Source: Arenimonas fontis (GTDB lineage Bacteria; Pseudomonadota; Gammaproteobacteria; Xanthomonadales; Xanthomonadaceae). From it: 64,000 nucleotides of DNA. Below, in pieces: positions 49,690 to 59,872 of the stretch. The position numbers were made by a program, and so were the translations under genes. Where the stretch lies: NCBI RefSeq assembly GCF_008386465.1, contig NZ_VUOD01000001.1, forward strand, positions 186,001 through 250,000. Reading direction: 5' to 3'. Under the pieces are notes generated by a model. It saw only the letters and a list, made by a program, of their open reading frames with translations, searched no databases and was not told the origin of the DNA. How positions within the stretch are numbered: position 1 is the first letter of the stretch; each line of letters starts with the position of its first letter.

Positions 49690-52032
49690 TCAGCGCAGGA
49701 CCCGCAACTCCAGCTCGTCCCAGGCGCCCGATTCGGCCAGGGCGGTGATGCGCTGAATGCCCGGCGCGTCGAAGCGGTGCCGCCAGTAGCGGCTGCCCAA
49801 GGTTTCGCCGGCCAGGCGGCCGTTCACCAGCCAGCGCACCCTGCCCTGCGCGCCCAGCGCCCGCAAGCGCAGCACCGGTGCCCGATCGCTGCCCGGTGGC
49901 GGCGCCAGGACGGCGCCGGGTGCCACGCCCTCGATGCGCAGGTTCTCCATCGCCGCCAGCGCGTCGGGCACGCAGTCGCCGGCCAGCGGCGGGATGGCGC
50001 TGGCGCGGCGCGTCTCCGCCGGCAGCCAGGGATAGGCCAGGCCCGGCCAGCGGGCGATCTCGCGGCGCTGGCGCCGGTGCGACTGCGCGCACTCGGCCGA
50101 CAGGCGCCGGCCGGTGTCGGCATCCACCTCCAGCACCAGCCGGCCCGGTCCCCAGAGCCGGGCCCCGCGCTCGGGCAGGGTCGGCGGCAGGCTGCCGGCC
50201 AGCAACCAGGCCTCGCGGCGCCGATGGCACAGCGAAGACGGCGTCTGTTCGGCCGGCAAGCCCAGCGGCCAGCAGATCTCGCGCCGCTGCACCGATGCCG
50301 GCGGTGGCGGCAGCTCGTGGCCGGCAACCTTCGGCAGGCTGTCCACCACCTCCAGCAACAGCGGCAAGGCGGTGATGGCGCCGTACTGGCCCGGCAGCGG
50401 CGTGCCATCCGGCCGCCCCACCCAGACCCCGACCGTATAGGCCGGCGTGCCGCCCAGGGCCCAGGCGTCGCGGAAGCCGTAGCTGGTGCCCGTCTTCCAG
50501 GCCACCGGTTGCCGGCCGCGGCGCTCGAACAGGGCCTCGCGCTCTTCCGGCCGACCGCCCGCGGCCAGGATCTCGCGGACGATCCAGGCCGCGCCCGGCG
50601 ACAGCAGGCGACGCTCCTGCAGCGGCTGCTCCGGCCGGTAGCGCACCACGCCGGCCAGGCCCTTGCGGTGCAAGGCGGCGTAGCCTCCGACCAGTTGCTC
50701 CAGGGAAATGCCGGTGCCGCCCAGGATCAGGCTCAGATTGGGCGGTGCGCCGCGCGGGAAACGCAGGCCCAGACCGGCATGGGCCAGCCGGGCAGCGAAA
50801 CGTTCGGGCCCGACCCGGTCCAGCAGGTCCACTGCCGGCACGTTCAGCGACAGCCGCAAGGCCTCGGCCACCGAGACCGGGCCATTGAAAGCCGGGTCGA
50901 AATTGCCAGGCCGGTAATCGCCGAAACTCTGCGGCGCATCCACCAGCAGACTCTCGGAATGCACCAGGCCATCGTCCATGGCCAGGCCGTACAGGAAGGG
51001 CTTGAGCGTGGAACCGGGCGAACGGGTGGCCCGAACCATGTCCACGTGACCCAGGCGCTCCGGATCGGCGAAGGCCAGCGAGCCGACGTAGGCGCGCGCC
51101 TGCAGGCCGTCGTTCTCCACCACCAGCACCGCCGCCGAAGTGCGAGGCGGCAGGCGCGCCGCCCAAACCTGCATGCGTTCTTCCAGGCTGCGCTGCAGCA
51201 CCGCATCCACGGTGCTGGCGATGCGCGCCCTGTCCGGCTCCGCCGCCTGCAGGCGCCGGGCCAGCAAGGGTGCGGACATCGGCGGCCGCAGCCGGCGCGC
51301 CAGCACCGGCTCCAGGCGGGCGTCGGCGATCTCGGCGGGACTCCAGTCACCATGCGCTGCCAGGCGCGCCAGCACCTTGTCGCGGGCGGCGCGGGCCGCC
51401 TCCGGGTGCCGGTCCGGCCGCAGGCGGCTGGGCGCCTGCGGCAACACCGCCAGCAACGCCGCCTCCGCCCGCGACAGCCGCGAAGCCGGTTTGCCCAGGT
51501 AGGCCCAGCTGGCGGCCTCGACACCCTCGATGGTGCCGCCATAGGGCGCGTGGTTGAGATGGATCTCGAGGATCTCCCGCTTGCTCAGCCGTGCCTCCAG
51601 CTGCAGGGCGCGCAGCGACTGCCGCAGCTTGCCGCCCAGGCTGCGCGGCTGCGGTTCCAGGATGCGCGCCACCTGCATGCTCAGGGTGGAGCCGCCGGAA
51701 ACGATGCGGCCGTGCCTGGCCCACTGCCAGGCCGCGCGCAGCATCGCCAGCGGATTCACGCCCAGGTGCCAATGGAACCAGCGGTCCTCGTAGCCGAGCA
51801 GAGCCTCGACGTAATGTGGCGACACGTCTTCCAGCGTCACTGGATAACGCCACACGCCGTCCGGCCCGGCGAAGGCGCGCAAGGGCGTACCGTCCGCGGC
51901 CAGCACCACCGTGGCGCCGCGGTCATCGGGCAGCGGCGGCGGAAACGACCGGTCCAGGACCAGCAGGGCCAGCAGCAGCCCGGCCAGCGCTGTTGCCGGC
52001 CGCCGCCACCGCCTGGCCGCTGCCGCCGACAT
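49690..52032 (-). CDS. pbpC: Penicillin-binding protein 1C
   Basis: This 780-aa bifunctional PBP has one N-terminal membrane anchor. The GT51 glycosyltransferase has Glu82 in YEDRWFHWHLGVNP and GGSTLSMQVAR. The transpeptidase has Ser341-x-x-Lys344 (SPGSTLK), Ser395-Leu-Asn397 and Lys513-Thr-Gly in KTGTS. The C-terminal BiPBP_C-type beta domain finishes the protein. It lies 4 nt downstream of the alpha-2-macroglobulin gene, a conserved pairing in Gram-negatives. Confidence 0.96.
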   Translation of the reverse strand: MSAAAARRWRRPATALAGLLLALLVLDRSFPPPLPDDRGATVVLAADGTPLRAFAGPDGVWRYPVTLEDVSPHYVEALLGYEDRWFHWHLGVNPLAMLRAAWQWARHGRIVSGGSTLSMQVARILEPQPRSLGGKLRQSLRALQLEARLSKREILEIHLNHAPYGGTIEGVEAASWAYLGKPASRLSRAEAALLAVLPQAPSRLRPDRHPEAARAARDKVLARLAAHGDWSPAEIADARLEPVLARRLRPPMSAPLLARRLQAAEPDRARIASTVDAVLQRSLEERMQVWAARLPPRTSAAVLVVENDGLQARAYVGSLAFADPERLGHVDMVRATRSPGSTLKPFLYGLAMDDGLVHSESLLVDAPQSFGDYRPGNFDPAFNGPVSVAEALRLSLNVPAVDLLDRVGPERFAARLAHAGLGLRFPRGAPPNLSLILGGTGISLEQLVGGYAALHRKGLAGVVRYRPEQPLQERRLLSPGAAWIVREILAAGGRPEEREALFERRGRQPVAWKTGTSYGFRDAWALGGTPAYTVGVWVGRPDGTPLPGQYGAITALPLLLEVVDSLPKVAGHELPPPPASVQRREICWPLGLPAEQTPSSLCHRRREAWLLAGSLPPTLPERGARLWGPGRLVLEVDADTGRRLSAECAQSHRRQRREIARWPGLAYPWLPAETRRASAIPPLAGDCVPDALAAMENLRIEGVAPGAVLAPPPGSDRAPVLRLRALGAQGRVRWLVNGRLAGETLGSRYWRHRFDAPGIQRITALAESGAWDELELRVLR

Positions 52033-52036
52033 GGCG

Positions 52037-55000
52037 TCAGGGCGGCGTGACGGTGATCGTCCCGGGCACGGCCCGGCCGACCCCGCGCAGCTCCGGCCGG
52101 TACATGTCCTCGACCCGCGGTGGTGGCACCTGGTAGCTGCCGGGCGTCACCGCCCGCACCAGGTAGAACAGATGCGCCGGCTGGCCCGCGTACAGGCGCA
52201 GCGCGGCCACGTAGCGGTCGTCGCGGTATTCCTCATGCTGAAGTTCGGCGGCATTGCCGCGCTCGGCCAGCCTGACGCCGTCAATGCTGACCTCGGCCCA
52301 CTGGGCCGGATCGGCCAGATTGAGATTCTCCAGCTCCAGGCCCGCCGGCAGCAGGTCCTCGACCAGGGCATCGGGCATGTTCTCGCGCGCCTCCACCCGC
52401 AAGGCGACCACCAGCACTTCGCCCTCGCGCAGCGGCCCGGGCTGCCAGGGCTTGCCGTCGGGACGGTACCAGCGACGGACCACACTGACCTTGCTGTCGT
52501 CGGCCGGCGGCGCCGCGCGCGGCACGCCGGCCAGGTCCAGTACCGCGAACACCGGCACCTCGGCCCGGGCCAGGAAACGCACGCCGGCGGCGAGTTGCTC
52601 CGATGAGAAATCGCGACCGAAGATCCGGTCGGGCGGCAGCTCCAGGGTCTCGCCGCCCACGGTCAGGGTGCCGGAGAAGCTGCGTTCGCCGTCCAGGACC
52701 AGACTCCGTCCGAGCCGGGCAAGGGCGAGGCGCTCCTGGGTACTGAACCAGTAGGGCCGGTCGGTGCGGGCCTGCAACTCGCGCGAAAGCGCCAGCAGGC
52801 GCTGCTCCTGCTCCGGCGTGCCGCGGCCGTGCTCGCGCAGCAGGGCCAGCATCATCGCCTCGTCGCGCAGCTCGCTGCCGTAGTCGCCCAGCCAACGCGG
52901 GCGCTCGGACACCTTGGCCAGTCCCTCACGGATTGCCACCGCCGCCCGGGCTTCGTCGCCCTGCAGGGCCAGGGCCAGGCCCAGGTGCACCAGTGGCAGC
53001 CCGGTCAGGGCCTTGCCGCGCTCATTGTCGTGCAGGGCGCGCAGGGTGCCCAGCGGGGCCCGGTTCAGGCGCGCCAGCACGTAACCGGCATGGGCCTGGT
53101 AGGCCAGGCGCAGGTGTTCGGGGTGGTCGTAGGCGTAGAACGGCAAGCCACCGGTGAGCAGATCCTCGCCCAGCCGCTCCAGGCTCTTCTGCAACAGGCC
53201 CTCGGGCACGGCGAAACCGGCCTCGCGCGCCGACAGCAGGAACTCGGCGACATGGGGCGTCAGCACCGGCACCGTCTCGCTGCCGCCCCAGAAGCTGAAG
53301 TGGCCGTTGCCGACCTGCAGCGCCTGCAGGCGGCTGAAGGCCGCCTCCAGACGGCGCCTGCGCTCGCCTTCGTCCAGGCCAGGGAAACCCAGGCGGCGGG
53401 CATTGGCCTCGTCCAGCAGCAGGGCGGCGTAGCCGCGGGTGGTGGTCTGTTCGACGCAGCCGTAGGGGTAGTCCAGCAGGTCCTGCAGTGCGCGCGCCAA
53501 GGGCAAGGGCGGATCGGCGGTCACGCTCAGGCGCGCCGACACCGTTCCCGGCAGCAATCCCGCGGCGGCCTCGCTGCCAAAGACCAGGGGTTCGCCCGGC
53601 GCCAGCGAACGCGCCTGCGAACGGGCGACCGCGCCCCAGGCGGGCCGCACCGGCACCTCGAACTTGCGGCGCACGGCATGTCCGCCGCCTTCCGCGCTCA
53701 GCACCAGGGTGCCGATGCCGGCGCCCTCGCCGGCTCCCAGGGCGAACTGCAGGGTCTGCCTGCCCTCGGGTTCCAGGTGCAGGCGGCGCCGACCCTCGGC
53801 GACGCTCAGCGGGCCGCCCGCCTCCAGGCGCACGGTGAATTCGCCGGCGGCACCGGTGAAATTCTGCAGGTCCACCGTCACCGTGCTGCGGTCGCCGGGG
53901 GCCAGCGCTCGCGGCGCGCTCAGCTCGGCCAACAGCGGGGCCCGCAGCACGCTCTCGCGACTGGCCTGGCCGTAGCTGTCCTCGCCGAACACCAGGGCCG
54001 AGACCCGCAGGGTGCCGTTGAAATCCGGCACCGGCACCTCGACCGTGGCCCGGCCCCCTGCGTCCAGGCGTACCGGACCGGTGAACAGGTCCACCGTCTG
54101 CACGCGCGCGGTGGGCCGGCGTGCCTGCGGCAGGGGCGGCAGCGCCATGTCGCCGCCGAAACGCAGGCGTGCGCTTTCGCCCTCGTAACTTTCGATCACC
54201 CGTCCATAGAGGTCGCGCGCTTCCACGCCCAGGCGGCGCTGGGCGAAGAAATGCCCGGCCGCGTCCGGCACCGGGAAGCGGGTGATGTTGACGATGCCCA
54301 GGTCCACCGCCGACACCGTGGCCCATGCGGTTCTGCCGGCCAGGGCCGGCGCCGACACGGTCACCGGCAGGGTCTGCTCGGGCCTGGCCTGGGCCGGCGC
54401 CTCGATCTCGACCGCGATACGTCGGTCAGTGCGGTCCATGGGCACGTGCGCGACGCCGACGGCGCGGGCGGGCGTGGTCTTCTCCAAGGCCGAGCCGCCA
54501 CGCAAGACCACGGCGGTGACGTAAACGTCGTGCCGCTCCCACTCGGCCGTGACCGGGATTTCGTAAGTCTCGCCGGACTTGGCCAGCAACGGCTGCAGGT
54601 GCAGCGGCCGGTCGCTTTCCACCACCAGGAAGCCCGGCCCGGGCTGCGGCGGCGTCACCGTCACCTTCAGGGTGTCGCCGGCGCGGTAGGCGGTCTTGTC
54701 CAGGGCCAGTTTCACCTTGTCCGGACGCGCGTCCAGACCGCGGTTCTGGTTGTCCCAGCTCCAGCCGGCGACGAAGGGCAGCCGGGTCACCAGGCCGGTC
54801 GCCGGATCGGTCACTTCCAGCCGGTACTCACCCCACTCCACCCGGAAATCCACCCGCTCGCCGCCATCGCTGCGCAAGCGCAAGGGCCGTGTGTCCACCG
54901 TCTGGTAACGGGCGGTGTAGTCGAAGCTCCAGCCGGCGTCGGTGCGCAACCAGTGGTAGTCGCGCAGTTCGCGCACCAGCCGTACCTCCACCTCGGCGGC

Positions 55001-56938
55001 CGAAAGCGCGCCGGCGGCATCGCTGCGCACCAGTTCGAAGCCGGCCACGCCGTTGGCCGGCGCACCTTCCTTCAGGTCGAACAGCGGACGCACGCCCACC
55101 AGATGCGCGGCCGGCCACACCACCCGCTTCAGGCTGCGGCTGACCGGGCGTCCTCCGCTTTCGTAGACGCTGCCCGTGAGCACGGCGGCCAGGGGCGCGC
55201 CCGATGCGGCCGCTTCTTCGGGCAGGGCAAGGTCGCGGGCCAGCTCGCCCCGTTCGTCCAGAGCCTCGTCCAGGACATCCCTGGCATCCCGGGGCAAGGC
55301 CAGGGTCGGGTCGCCGAAATGGTGGTCAGGCAGGGCCTGCACCGGATGCGCTTCGTGCAGGACCGCAAGCTTGGCGCTGAAACGGTTGCCGGCCGCGGGC
55401 GCACCGTACAGGTAGGCGGCCCGCACGCGCAGCTCCAGGGCCTGGCCCGGCATCAGGCCCGGCTGCGGGCTGTCCAGCTCCAGCTTCATGCGCTCGGGCA
55501 GGAACTCCTCGACCCTCAGGCTCATGCCCTGCACCACCTCGCCGGCGCCCGGCGCGGTCCGGAACTCCACCCGCCAGCGGCCGGTGGGCACCTCCGGAGG
55601 CAGGGCGTGACTCCACTCCAGGTAGCCGCCCTCGCCCGGATCCAGCCGCGTTTCCAGGTATACCTTGCCGTCGGGTTGGCGCAGGCTGAGGTAGAGCGGC
55701 TGCGGCGGCACGGCGCGGCCGTCGTGGTCACGCATCAGGGCGGCAAGCCGCAGGGTCTCGCCCGGCCGGTACAGGTCGCGGCCGGACCAGGCGAACACAT
55801 CGAACCAGGCCTGTGGCCGGCCGGCCACGGCGAACTCGGACAGGTCCAGGGCCGGCTGGTTGAAGGGCAGTACCGAAACGTCGTTGCCGCTGCGCGCCAC
55901 CAGGGCATGGCTGGCGTCCAGGGTGTAGGCGATCAGGGCATTGCCGGCGCCGTCGGTGCTGGCCTTGAGCACGGTTTCGCCCTTGCGGCCGAGTATCTCC
56001 AGGGCCACGTCGCCGATCGGCTCGCCGGAGCGCAAGGAAGCGGTATGCACCAGCACCCTGTCGCCGTAGGCGCGCAGATGCAGGCCCAGGTCCGAGACGA
56101 AGAATATCGCCGTCTCGAAGGTCCCCTCGTAATCTCCCACCCGCCGCATCAGCGCGAAGTACACGCCCGGTTCCTGCAGCTCCGGTATGTTCTGCACCGG
56201 CAGGAAGCTGAGCCGGCGCTCGTTCTCGCCGCCGCCCAGCACGAAGCGGTTGAGGTAGACCGAATCGGCCAGGCGGTTGATCGCCGCCCGGTCCATCCAG
56301 CGCGCCTCGCTCAGATCCCAGCCGCTGCGGGCGCCGCCGCGCTGGTAGGAACCGAAGAAGTTGGCCAGCTCGCGCTCGCGCACCCGCAGGAACTCGACGT
56401 CCACCTCCGGCACGTTCACCGACACCACCGGCAAGCCGCGGGTGTCGCGTGCCGGCAGCACGCTGCCCTGGGAGGCGAAGGCCACGGCCGGCTCGACCGG
56501 ACCGGTGTTGACGCTGCGTTCGAGGTCGGCGCCCAGGGTGCTGCCGTCGGCCGCGGCCAGACCGGCGCGCAGCTTCACTCGGTAATCTCGGCCTGGTTCG
56601 ACGAAAGGAAAGCGCAGGATCTTCGCCCCCTCGTCGAGCACCCAGCTGCCCCTGACCGCTTCGCCACCGGGTCCCTGCACGGACAACAGTGCGTCGAAGT
56701 CCTGACCGGCCGCCAGCGCTCGCGAAAACTCCAGCTGGATCGCCGGCTGCCCGTCCTGGCGACCGTGCCCGGCCGATATCAGGGCGAAACCCTCGACCTG
56801 CGGCCGGGCATCCACCGCAGTTCGCTGCAGTTCCGGCACTTGTGCCTCGTCACGGCGGCAGGCCGTCAGCGCCAGCAGCAGGACGAGCGCGAAGGCGGCA
56901 CCGCCGCGCAGGATTCCCCGGGAGGATTTCGCTTCCAT
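52037..56938 (-). CDS. yfhM: Bacterial alpha-2-macroglobulin, lipoprotein with thioester
   Basis: This 1633-aa protein has a lipoprotein signal ending LTAC (Cys27). MG-type beta-domains follow, then the thioester motif CVEQ (Cys1161-Gln1164 in PYGCVEQTTT) and an alpha/alpha thioester domain. The type is the YfhM/ECAM trap for host or rival proteases in the periplasm, working with PBP1C to guard the wall. Length is close to the E. coli protein. A TATACT -10 box lies 25 nt before the ATG. Confidence 0.96.
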   Translation of the reverse strand: MEAKSSRGILRGGAAFALVLLLALTACRRDEAQVPELQRTAVDARPQVEGFALISAGHGRQDGQPAIQLEFSRALAAGQDFDALLSVQGPGGEAVRGSWVLDEGAKILRFPFVEPGRDYRVKLRAGLAAADGSTLGADLERSVNTGPVEPAVAFASQGSVLPARDTRGLPVVSVNVPEVDVEFLRVRERELANFFGSYQRGGARSGWDLSEARWMDRAAINRLADSVYLNRFVLGGGENERRLSFLPVQNIPELQEPGVYFALMRRVGDYEGTFETAIFFVSDLGLHLRAYGDRVLVHTASLRSGEPIGDVALEILGRKGETVLKASTDGAGNALIAYTLDASHALVARSGNDVSVLPFNQPALDLSEFAVAGRPQAWFDVFAWSGRDLYRPGETLRLAALMRDHDGRAVPPQPLYLSLRQPDGKVYLETRLDPGEGGYLEWSHALPPEVPTGRWRVEFRTAPGAGEVVQGMSLRVEEFLPERMKLELDSPQPGLMPGQALELRVRAAYLYGAPAAGNRFSAKLAVLHEAHPVQALPDHHFGDPTLALPRDARDVLDEALDERGELARDLALPEEAAASGAPLAAVLTGSVYESGGRPVSRSLKRVVWPAAHLVGVRPLFDLKEGAPANGVAGFELVRSDAAGALSAAEVEVRLVRELRDYHWLRTDAGWSFDYTARYQTVDTRPLRLRSDGGERVDFRVEWGEYRLEVTDPATGLVTRLPFVAGWSWDNQNRGLDARPDKVKLALDKTAYRAGDTLKVTVTPPQPGPGFLVVESDRPLHLQPLLAKSGETYEIPVTAEWERHDVYVTAVVLRGGSALEKTTPARAVGVAHVPMDRTDRRIAVEIEAPAQARPEQTLPVTVSAPALAGRTAWATVSAVDLGIVNITRFPVPDAAGHFFAQRRLGVEARDLYGRVIESYEGESARLRFGGDMALPPLPQARRPTARVQTVDLFTGPVRLDAGGRATVEVPVPDFNGTLRVSALVFGEDSYGQASRESVLRAPLLAELSAPRALAPGDRSTVTVDLQNFTGAAGEFTVRLEAGGPLSVAEGRRRLHLEPEGRQTLQFALGAGEGAGIGTLVLSAEGGGHAVRRKFEVPVRPAWGAVARSQARSLAPGEPLVFGSEAAAGLLPGTVSARLSVTADPPLPLARALQDLLDYPYGCVEQTTTRGYAALLLDEANARRLGFPGLDEGERRRRLEAAFSRLQALQVGNGHFSFWGGSETVPVLTPHVAEFLLSAREAGFAVPEGLLQKSLERLGEDLLTGGLPFYAYDHPEHLRLAYQAHAGYVLARLNRAPLGTLRALHDNERGKALTGLPLVHLGLALALQGDEARAAVAIREGLAKVSERPRWLGDYGSELRDEAMMLALLREHGRGTPEQEQRLLALSRELQARTDRPYWFSTQERLALARLGRSLVLDGERSFSGTLTVGGETLELPPDRIFGRDFSSEQLAAGVRFLARAEVPVFAVLDLAGVPRAAPPADDSKVSVVRRWYRPDGKPWQPGPLREGEVLVVALRVEARENMPDALVEDLLPAGLELENLNLADPAQWAEVSIDGVRLAERGNAAELQHEEYRDDRYVAALRLYAGQPAHLFYLVRAVTPGSYQVPPPRVEDMYRPELRGVGRAVPGTITVTPP

Positions 56939-57026: not shown

Positions 57027-57809
57027 TCAGTCGGCGCGCACCACGGGCAGGCGGGCCGCCTGGGCGGTGGCAGCGGCGACGCGCTCGACTGGCGTCATGC
57101 GCAGCACCAGGTCGGCCATGTCCAGACCGATGCCGGTATTGCCCTGACGGGCCAGCGACGCCAGGTCCACGTCCACGAAGCCCATCGGCCGGCCGTCGTG
57201 CGAGAAGGCCATGCCGGGCACCCCGTCCACCAGCAGGCGGAAGGTCGGCGTGCGCGTTTCGCCCAGCACCAGGCCGGGCCGGAACACCGGCACGCCACCC
57301 CACTCGTCCGAGGTTCGCAGCAACGAGAAGAACACCATGCCGGGCTCGGCCCTGGCGCCCTGGCTGAGATCCACGAACGGCAGCTTGCCGGGCGTTTCGC
57401 GCAAGCGCAGCCAGGCCAGGCCGAGCTCGCCGTCGCGGGTCACCAGGTCGGCGTCCAGCCATTCCTCGCTGCCGGGCAGGCGTACCCGGAACTCGCTGGA
57501 CGTCGCCATCGGCGCGGCCTGCCCGGGACCGCCACCGCCGAAGATGCCGAGGTCCACGCTGACCGCACGGGCCGGCACCAGCACCAGGCCGTCGGTGCTG
57601 ACCAGGAGTCCCTGGGTGCGGTCCTCGATCCGCTGCTGGTTGGCGCCGTCAGGCACGCTGATCACGAACTTCACCGGTACCACCGCGTCACCGTGCCGGC
57701 GGGCCAGGTCCCGGTATATCTCCCGGTAGTCCTCGAACTCTTCCGCGGCAACCCCCGGCACGGGGGCGGCGAGCAGGGCCAGGGGCAACAACAGGGCGGC
57801 GAGTTTCAT
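57027..57809 (-). CDS. Exported degenerate trypsin-like protein (pseudoprotease) paired with HtrA
   Basis: This 260-aa protein has a signal peptide (cut near GVAA, residue 22) and a trypsin-like fold that can be aligned by eye to the protease encoded just upstream. The three catalytic positions are lost: Arg81 replaces His (PARAV for NAHV), Gly130 replaces Asp (ELGLAWLRL for LSDLAVLKV) and Val196 replaces Ser (DGVPG for GNSGG). Glycines and strand spacing around these sites are kept, so the fold is probably intact. Its ATG overlaps the stop of the active-protease gene (ATGA), pointing to a stoichiometric partner or regulator. Confidence 0.8.
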   Translation of the reverse strand: MKLAALLLPLALLAAPVPGVAAEEFEDYREIYRDLARRHGDAVVPVKFVISVPDGANQQRIEDRTQGLLVSTDGLVLVPARAVSVDLGIFGGGGPGQAAPMATSSEFRVRLPGSEEWLDADLVTRDGELGLAWLRLRETPGKLPFVDLSQGARAEPGMVFFSLLRTSDEWGGVPVFRPGLVLGETRTPTFRLLVDGVPGMAFSHDGRPMGFVDVDLASLARQGNTGIGLDMADLVLRMTPVERVAAATAQAARLPVVRAD

Positions 57810-59872
57810 CGGGTCTCCGTGAGCCAGTAGCGTTCGAGGTAGAGAATGCGCGTTTCCGCGCCGCGAATCACCTGCAGCGGGATCACCCGGCCATTGCCCT
57901 CGCCCAGGGCCGCATCCAGCGCGGCCGCCAGGCCGTCCAGGTCGCGGACGGGCTGGTCGCCGAGATGGACGATCAGATCGCCGGTCTTGAGATGGGCCAG
58001 GCCGGCCGGACCGCCGGACTCCACGCCATCCACCAACACCCCGGCCTGTGTGGCCGGCAACTGGCGCGCCACGCGGTCGTAGAAACCAAGTTCCCGCAGT
58101 TGCGCGCGCAGCAGGCTTTGCGACAGCGTGCGCAGGGCCGAGGCGTCGGCCGGCGCCGCGGCCAGATCGGCTTCCAGGTGCCGCTCCCGCCCCTCGCGCA
58201 AGGCCAGGAAGCGGGCCCGGTGCCCGATCGGCAGCTCCCGCACCCGCTGGTGAAAGCCGTCGGCGTTGTTGTCGTTGGCCGGCAGCAACGGCTGCCCTTC
58301 GAGCGCGTTCAGAAGGTCGCCCACTCGGGCGCCGGCCTGGCCGAGCGGGCTGCCGGGATAGATGCGGGTGACCCGGTAGCCAGGGCCGGGCAGGCCGAGT
58401 TCGCGGGCCAGGGACCCCGTCACCGCCTGAACCTCGACGCCGGCCCAGGCCTTGGGCAGCTCCGGCAGCGGCGTCCGCACCCGGTCCCCGTACACCGGAA
58501 CCAGCGCCGTCAGCCGGCGTTCGGCGCCACGATGGAATTCAACCACCAGGCTGCGGCCGGGCCCGGGCACGGCGAATGCCTCCAGGTCGGCATGGCTGGC
58601 GACCGGCCGGCCGTCGACGGCACGGATCACGTCACCCGACTGCAGCGCCGGTCGGGCGATCGCCGCCGGACCGCCAGGCCGGACACCGGTGACCAGCAAG
58701 CCGGACTCGGTGTCGAGCTGCCGGCGCCGGCTCATGGCCGGCGTCAACTCCACCAACGAAGCGCCGAAGGGGAGGAAGGCGCGTTCCTCGCCGCGGTCGG
58801 GCGGTTGCGCAAGGGCGGTCAGCAGCAGCCGTTCGCGCCTGCCCTTGCGCTCGATGTCCAGCCTCACCCGGTGCCCGATCGGCAGTTCGGCGATGCGCCG
58901 CTGCAGGGCCGGCACGTCCACCGGCTGCGGGGCGTCCACCCTGTCGCCGTCCAGGCCGAGGATGCGATCGCCGGGTCGCAGCCCGGCCTGTTCCGCTTCC
59001 GAACCGCGCTCGACCGCGTTCACCAGCACGCCGCGCTCGAACCCCGTCCCCTTGAGCGAGCGCAGCCGGAAACCGAGATGCGCCCGCTCGATCCGCCCCT
59101 TGCCGATCAGCTCGCGAACGACCACGGCGGCGTCGGGCCCGGGAATGGCGAAGGCCAGGTCGCCGCCGAAGATCATGCCGCGGGTATTGACGCCGACGAT
59201 GCGGCCGTGCAGGTCCACCAGCGGACCGCCGGAGTTGCCGGGCGCGATGGCGGCATCGTGCTGGATCCAGGCGTAGTATCGGCCGGTCGGCTGGTCGGCA
59301 CCGAGACGATCCTCGTAGTCGGCCTCGTCGTCGAACAGCGAAACCAGCAGGCGGCGCGGATTGTTCACCACGCCGGCGCTGAGTGAGTTGGACAGGCCCC
59401 AGGGCGCGCCCATGGCCAGCACGGTGTCGCCCGGGCGCAGATCCAGGCGCTCGGCGAACTCGGCGTGGGCAAAGGTTTCCGGCGCCGGTGGCTGCACTTT
59501 CAGCACGGCCAGGTCGGACAAGCTGTCCTCGCCGACCAGTTGCGCAGGCAACTCGCGGCCGTCCGCGAATACCACCCGGAAGCTGCGCCCGTTCTGGGTG
59601 ACATGGGCATTGGTGGCGACGTGGCCCTCGGCCGTTACGACGGTGCCGCTGCCGCTGGAGACGGTCAGCACTGGCTCGCCCTGCTGGAAGTCCTCGCGCA
59701 CGGTGAGGATGCTGACGACCACCGGCAGGACCCGGTCGCGGGCGGCGGCCATGCGTTCGGCGTCGCCGGTCGCGGCCGGCGCCGACTCGTCTTGCGCCGG
59801 CAGCGCCGCCCCGGGCGCCATCCCCAACAGGAGCGCGACCAGTCCGGCCGCAACGGTTCGATGCACGCGCAT
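57806..59872 (-). CDS. HtrA/DegP-like serine protease with four PDZ domains
   Basis: This 688-aa protein has a signal peptide (~residues 1-26) and a trypsin-like domain with the full triad His90 (TNAHV), Asp120 (LSDLAVL) and Ser214 (GNSGGPL). An insert of about 35 residues (170-205) lies in the LA-loop region. Four PDZ-like domains follow at about 264-355, 364-460, 475-570 and 597-680. PDZ1 and PDZ3 share ELPIGHR, a sign of duplication. Ordinary DegP has two PDZs, so this is an unusual architecture. It has a strong GGAGGAGGT site and TACCCT upstream. Confidence 0.88.
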   Translation of the reverse strand: MRVHRTVAAGLVALLLGMAPGAALPAQDESAPAATGDAERMAAARDRVLPVVVSILTVREDFQQGEPVLTVSSGSGTVVTAEGHVATNAHVTQNGRSFRVVFADGRELPAQLVGEDSLSDLAVLKVQPPAPETFAHAEFAERLDLRPGDTVLAMGAPWGLSNSLSAGVVNNPRRLLVSLFDDEADYEDRLGADQPTGRYYAWIQHDAAIAPGNSGGPLVDLHGRIVGVNTRGMIFGGDLAFAIPGPDAAVVVRELIGKGRIERAHLGFRLRSLKGTGFERGVLVNAVERGSEAEQAGLRPGDRILGLDGDRVDAPQPVDVPALQRRIAELPIGHRVRLDIERKGRRERLLLTALAQPPDRGEERAFLPFGASLVELTPAMSRRRQLDTESGLLVTGVRPGGPAAIARPALQSGDVIRAVDGRPVASHADLEAFAVPGPGRSLVVEFHRGAERRLTALVPVYGDRVRTPLPELPKAWAGVEVQAVTGSLARELGLPGPGYRVTRIYPGSPLGQAGARVGDLLNALEGQPLLPANDNNADGFHQRVRELPIGHRARFLALREGRERHLEADLAAAPADASALRTLSQSLLRAQLRELGFYDRVARQLPATQAGVLVDGVESGGPAGLAHLKTGDLIVHLGDQPVRDLDGLAAALDAALGEGNGRVIPLQVIRGAETRILYLERYWLTETR

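Follow-up and report, generated by a model that had tools for sequence, protein, structure and literature searches.

In a 64,000-nucleotide stretch of the Arenimonas fontis genome (hereafter the window), the gene for an HtrA-like serine protease with four PDZ domains (A) is followed by a small gene (B), the product of which is predicted to share the HtrA protease fold and carries no catalytic triad. The two genes stand side by side in every sampled genome that contains B, and B is probably a working partner of A. We put the probability at about 0.5 that the two proteins form a single envelope proteolysis system, in which B serves as a non-catalytic subunit or allosteric partner that docks on A.

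Organization of the Locus

Both genes are located on the minus strand of the window, where A (57806..59872) encodes a predicted periplasmic protein of 688 aa and B (57027..57809) a predicted secreted protein of 260 aa without a PDZ domain. As had been proposed from the DNA, the reading frames overlap by 4 nt in the start/stop sequence ATGA (57806..57809, minus strand). Such a 4-nt overlap of the B start codon with the A stop codon was found at 28 of 34 junctions, a recurrence that exceeds chance; the values for the other six are -1 (L051), +15 (L055), +2 (L058 and L122), +9 (L123) and +55 (L124), and the junction in G321, a genome from another family of the class, is a 1-nt overlap (TGATG). 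A GGAG word is situated upstream of B inside the last codons of A (57810-57829, minus strand), and words resembling a Shine-Dalgarno sequence precede B in 30 of the 34 cases, a raw count that has no chance baseline. An ATGA or GTGA at the start of B was likewise counted in 30, among them L123 and L124, the starts of which lie clear of the A stop codon. The LTETP end of A, which is conserved in Arenimonas, may serve the ribosome signal of B and not the A protein. The original prediction went further and took the ATGA coupling as a sign of fixed stoichiometry, which over-reads an overlap that is no proof of it.

The order of genes along the minus strand is mtnA, gyrA, A, B, a gene for a bacterial alpha-2-macroglobulin (A2M; 52037-56938, with Pfam bMG and bait-region domains) and, downstream of the latter, pbpC (49690-52032). 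A protease trap next to a protease pair is striking, but the linkage is lineage-specific: A2M comes next after B in 18 of the 20 Arenimonas loci, the exceptions being L052 and L053 (the contig of L053 stops short), and it does not follow B in the loci of families f3 and f7. Genes neighboring the pair beyond Arenimonas and f3 gave no hint of function. In locus L048 (7629-12485), the match to the A2M gene was split into five pieces with shifted frames and gyrA into two, possibly due to assembly errors.

Protease Domain, PDZ Domains and L3-Equivalent Loop of A

Pfam and the predicted structure place a trypsin-like domain at about residues 40-262 of A (Trypsin_2, E 2.8e-29). Its catalytic triad, H90/D120/S214, had been read correctly in the original prediction; it is invariant in an alignment of 21 rows, and the triad motifs were recovered from each of the 31 A sequences in which the protease domain could be read (28 by pattern and three by eye), a count that leaves out L038, in which this domain is broken, as well as L121, L125 and L126, in which only the C-terminus is present. 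In the AF2 model (mean pLDDT 79.1, pTM 0.58), residues 31-359 superpose on DegS with a Z-score of 30.9 and an rmsd of 2.6 over 291 aligned residues. The match to TIGR02037, the DegP/DegQ “Do” subfamily, reached 311 bits, below the cut-off of 416.2, and the match to the MamE model 165 bits, with a cut-off of 800. Judged by its sequence, with both a triad-bearing domain and C-terminal PDZ domains, A classifies as an HtrA (S1C) serine protease.

The four PDZ domains are located at about residues 262-352, 366-460, 474-572 and 585-682. Several Pfam PDZ models match this region, PDZ_6 with four stretches, and four PDZ-like units are visible both in the sequence and in the AF2 secondary structure. 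The first two domains are similar to the last two (blastp, 35% over 184 aa, E 5e-15), and the best profile pairs are PDZ1-PDZ3 (3.2e-17) and PDZ2-PDZ4 (1.4e-16), followed by the remaining four pairs with values from 6.8e-14 to 2.1e-9. Since PDZ1 is closest to PDZ3 and PDZ2 to PDZ4, and since the two halves are alike, the PDZ1-PDZ2 unit was duplicated as a whole, in agreement with the initial suggestion of a PDZ duplication. The PDZ3-PDZ4 half, the copy (57809..58510, minus strand), was turned into profile A3 for searches specific to A.

A contains an acidic loop of 32 residues in the window (residues 173-204; 59261..59356, minus strand, with coordinates counted from the ORF start), flanked by the strand that follows the GxP motif and the one that precedes the serine loop. 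The loop is 29-32 aa long in 30 A rows (29 in f7), whereas it is 13-17 aa long, or roughly half as long, in 11 other HtrAs. We assigned it from its position to loop L3 of DegP and DegS, and L3 of DegS is described as the loop by which the PDZ domain signals to the active site (PMC11642142). Around the loop, the sequence shows high conservation within Arenimonas and f3 and includes an acidic stretch resembling FDDEADYED; it is also present in G321. In the model, residues 180-197 have a pLDDT under 50.

Predicted Fold of B

The B sequence from the window gave no family match in Pfam and NCBIfam at E<=1, and no relevant chain in the PDB. Its sequence link to the HtrA proteins came to light only through the relatives and the profile. 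At E<=1, 14 of 21 sequences in alignment A4 matched Trypsin_2 (6.4e-7 for the best one), as did 12 of 22 relatives at a list threshold of E 10. The A4 profile matches A of the window at 1.0e-6 and other frames of HtrA length at 2.3e-7 and weaker, and an hhalign comparison of the B profile, alignment A1, with alignment A2 gave an E-value of 2.8e-6 and a probability of 88.3. The AF2 model of B (pLDDT 82.9, pTM 0.78) matched DegP best (VIA, Z 19.0, rmsd 2.8, 191 aligned residues), and the best Foldseek match was HtrA1 (E 2.9e-11, TM 0.56 by query length); these searches listed only HtrA and similar chains, and other folds are not judged by them. B is thus predicted to have the double beta-barrel fold of the HtrA protease domain, which bears out the earlier proposal that it keeps a trypsin-like fold.

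No member of A4 matched the MamO model NF040961 at E<=1, no TauE domain is listed for the 260-aa B, and Pfam and NCBIfam look-ups with B from the window and its relatives revealed no inhibitor-like motif or family. Across the B family there is no conserved Cys or His pair hinting at metal, and two Cys occur only in the f7 and g48 members. A signal-peptide-like N-terminus was recognized in 33 of the 34 B sequences by a crude test of hydropathy and an A-x-A motif, as expected from the original description of a signal peptide of its own on B. By the same crude test, export signals are present in both A and B, and we infer that both proteins would be located in the periplasm, where they may be in physical contact.

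Loss of the Catalytic Triad in B

The positions of the His, Asp and Ser in the triad are taken in B by Arg81, Gly130 and Val197. The first two had been named before, but the serine equivalent had been placed at residue 196, which is a Gly. In the models, the His column falls in a short helix just after a strand (residues 84-88 followed by 89-92 in A, and 75-79 followed by 80-82 in B), the Asp column immediately precedes one (A 121, B 131), and a further strand starts two or three residues past the Ser column (A 217, B 199). Among 34 B sequences, column 81 contains Arg in 24, Met, Asn and Leu in three each and Ser in one, with no His in any of them, and column 130 contains Gly in 30 and Asp in four, all of the latter from f7. 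Column 197 contains Ser in two of 33 sequences, both from the genus group g28, and other residues in the rest; one B sequence that is truncated and unreadable there is left out. None of the 33 sequences that are readable at all three positions has the triad or, in the alignment, more than one of its residues, and the search for a working triad in B came up empty in both the sequence and the model alignments. Even L122, in which the Asp is present and a Ser is one column off, has no His. B is therefore a pseudoprotease, because none of the 34 sequences has the His and none more than one triad residue, and the various families of B lost the residues along different routes.

Two subgroups are of interest in their own right. 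In the g28 loci L117 and L118, B has a Ser at the serine column (VDGSPG), whereas the His and Asp columns contain Arg and Gly. In f7 (L058, L122, L123 and L124), B has retained the catalytic Asp, its mature part contains two Cys, and its start lies clear of the stop codon of A.

Occurrence of the Pair

Relatives of B were identified in 35 genomes, comprising 20 from Arenimonas (that of the window, 18 others and one more), two from g28, eight from family f3, four from f7 and G321 (f17). The gene order that the original prediction proposed to look for elsewhere recurs throughout: A is located directly upstream of B on the same strand in all 35 of these genomes, although on the contigs of L121, L125 and L126 no more than the end of A is present. 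Upstream of A, gyrA is present in 27 of the 35, absent from that place in the four f7 genomes and in G321, and not visible in three, and the genes flanking the pair in f7 are unrelated to those in G321. Since the flanks change and A-B stays, it is the pair and not the neighborhood that is kept.

For 299 genomes of the order, B was searched with profile A1 and, independently, the C-terminal half of A with profile A3. Strong matches to B (E 2.0e-39 or better) and to A (down to 231.9 bits, followed by a gap to 91.2) coincided in 22 genomes. PDZ proteins were hit by A3 in every one of the 299 genomes, and only the matches in these 22 were taken as A. In the class, strong matches to both genes were found only in G000 and G321, two of 369 genomes, with the cut-off for A set between 201.7 and 103.1 bits; an A-like protease would escape a search based on A3 if its C-terminus differed strongly. 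Among 398 genomes from the phylum, a strong match to B was solely obtained in the genome of the window. Both genes were present in four and neither in 35 of 39 genomes from f7, a sample that overlaps with that of the order, and two genera in this family are mixed, with the pair in two of six genomes of g7 and two of four genomes of g68.

Within Arenimonas, B was detected in 18 of 24 other genomes, and A was present in all 12 of the 18 that were searched again. The six genomes without B (G001, G006, G007, G013, G014 and G024), which are 1.5-2.2 Mb in size with assemblies that are 74-100% complete, have no strong match to A either. These six small genomes have lost both genes, with the qualification that one of the searches behind the absence was run without a positive control of its own. 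No orphan A or orphan B was found among the sampled genomes of the order, the class, f7 and Arenimonas. The A-B pair is old and, in these samples, obligate.

Weaker matches to B were set aside by score and frame as probable ordinary HtrAs. Of the 26 matches from the order, four were discarded in this way (partial, in frames of 476-503 aa, with E 2.2e-4 to 6.7e-4), of the 53 from the class 51 (E no better than 2.3e-7), and of the seven from the phylum six (in frames of 474-549 aa, with E 7.7e-11 to 8.0e-9).

Sequence Constraint and Ancestry

Over seven close pairs, dN/dS values estimated by the Nei-Gojobori method were 0.10-0.36 for B and 0.09-0.26 for A, and 13 residues of B are invariant over 21 diverse members, a pattern which indicates that B is under purifying selection. 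In a tree of 30 A, 33 B and 11 other HtrA rows, A forms one group and B another, with support values of 100/99, and a single origin for each of the two families is likely from these data. The tree has long branches that may meet and cannot root B, and we therefore refrain from deriving B from A. The original description of B as a paralog of A holds in the wider sense of a shared HtrA fold, whereas an origin as a copy of A in particular goes beyond the data. The distance matrices of A and B are highly correlated (r 0.979, 406 pairs from 29 genomes), a value that includes their shared phylogeny and is not counted as evidence.

Possible Roles of B

We hypothesize that A acts as the catalytic HtrA protease, and probably also as a chaperone, with a doubled PDZ pair, and that B would be a co-translated, exported and catalytically dead protein with the HtrA protease fold. 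B may dock on A via the surfaces of the protease domain, as HtrA protease domains do among themselves, and would then set the oligomeric state and switch the activity of A; more speculatively, the enlarged and conserved L3 loop of A could take part in the contact. According to a review, HtrA protease domains assemble by contacts between these domains, and since B consists of only that domain and is never found without A, a subunit on the core of A is the simplest interpretation. Deg5-Deg8, Deg7 and MamE-MamO may be seen as precedents for a dead subunit. Other comparisons speak against it, in that one review from 2024 describes all HtrAs characterized so far as homo-oligomers, and in that MamE and MamO cooperate with no detected binding and depend on a TauE domain that B lacks. 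The obligate linkage equally fits an inhibitor, an adaptor, a substrate, or two proteins that act at separate steps of a shared pathway.

A more specific form of the subunit hypothesis, which we consider tentative, is a hetero-oligomeric HtrA with B in the same protease core, either in mixed trimers or as a B trimer capping an A trimer, where switching would occur via the L3 loop of A and the doubled PDZ pairs would gather substrates. If this is true, bacteria would have, encoded in two genes, an equivalent of Deg7 and Deg5-Deg8.

The original prediction offered an inhibitor, a substrate presenter or a scaffold as roles for B, of which the general notion of a partner is well supported genetically. 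It is conceivable, if rather unlikely, that B functions as an inhibitor dedicated to A, or as a safety catch, and holds A off until a stress signal or a substrate displaces it. Co-translation with A and invariant co-occurrence would suit an inhibitor that is made with its target, and a protein with neither PDZ domain nor triad is what would be expected of a decoy subunit. However, the look-ups for inhibitor-like motifs and families in B were negative, and HtrAs are usually described as inhibited by their own loops, which would make a separate inhibitor superfluous.

Somewhat less likely still is a substrate-binding adaptor, the dead cleft of which would bind unfolded or specific clients and pass them to A. 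The fold is retained with all catalytic residues replaced, as in scaffolds that are reused for binding, and the dead domain of MamO is reported to have been reused to bind metal. Yet, none of the 33 complete B proteins ends in V, L, I, M, F, Y, W or A, so that delivery to the PDZ domains of A by a C-terminal tag is unlikely and the presenter role is disfavored in this form, and metal binding is not suggested by any Cys or His pair conserved throughout the family.

We regard it as more doubtful that B is an independent envelope protein, which belongs to the same pathway or regulon as A and has no contact with it. An operon and shared inheritance need no contact, and no binding was detected between MamO and MamE, which nevertheless act together, but A and B are adjacent within differing flanks and were never found apart in our samples. 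Finally, that B is a decaying, functionless remnant of a second protease, as the missing triad and the long branches in the family tree might suggest, is highly improbable and already contradicted by the low dN/dS values and invariant residues, and by the open frames and the coupling to A that are kept across families.

We favor the hypothesis that B is a subunit or allosteric partner of A. Pseudoenzymes beside active relatives represent testable cases of a lost active site that has become a regulator, and B is a tiny, exported and cleanly delimited example that is genetically tied to one HtrA across several families, with the named culture Arenimonas oryziterrae DSM 21050 among the source species of the pair. 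If A and B bind to each other, this would be a hetero-oligomeric HtrA in bacteria, contrary to the statement on homo-oligomers in the 2024 review, and the arrangement seen in Deg7 and Deg5-Deg8 would have arisen more than once.

Comparison With Known Systems

Our literature searches retrieved no report of the A-B pair and none linking Arenimonas with HtrA, in line with the initial impression that this is not a described system, but close analogs exist. The protease domain and the first PDZ domains of A superpose on those of DegP, DegQ and DegS and of MucD and AlgW. A differs from these proteases by its four PDZ domains, by the greater length of its L3-equivalent loop and by the dead partner that obligately accompanies it.

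The plant protein Deg7 resembles the pair in its inventory of one active and one degenerate protease domain with four PDZ domains in total, and its degenerate domain has been described as mediating trimerization. Deg7 is a single polypeptide with the order PD-PDZ-PDZ-dead PD-PDZ-PDZ, whereas A and B are two reading frames, and the dead domain is here a separate gene after PDZ4 with a signal peptide of its own. Yeast Nma111/Ynm3 has the same inventory of domains as Deg7.

Deg5 and Deg8 in the plant chloroplast are reported to form heterohexamers at a ratio of about 1:1, and only recombinant Deg8 was active (PMC4754418). Like the putative A-B complex, this is a PDZ-less protein with the HtrA fold paired with a PDZ-bearing HtrA. 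Deg5-Deg8 resides in the thylakoid lumen and Deg8 has one PDZ domain as compared to four in A, and Deg5 has been listed as potentially active (PMC3473262), unlike B with no triad.

In magnetotactic bacteria, an active HtrA protease, MamE, likewise has a neighboring pseudoprotease with the HtrA fold, MamO, which was found to be needed in a non-catalytic manner for MamE-dependent proteolysis; its authors state that they detected no physical interaction between the two, that activation required the TauE domain of MamO, and that the dead domain has been reused for metal binding via a di-histidine motif (PMC4794232). With 260 aa and no TauE domain, B is unlike MamO as described there, with its metal-binding domain and its TauE-like transporter domain. 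HtrA pseudoproteases beside active HtrAs were thus known already. The A-B pair is new in combining a protease that has a duplicated set of four PDZ domains and an altered regulatory loop with a minimal, free-standing dead partner to which it is obligately linked genetically.
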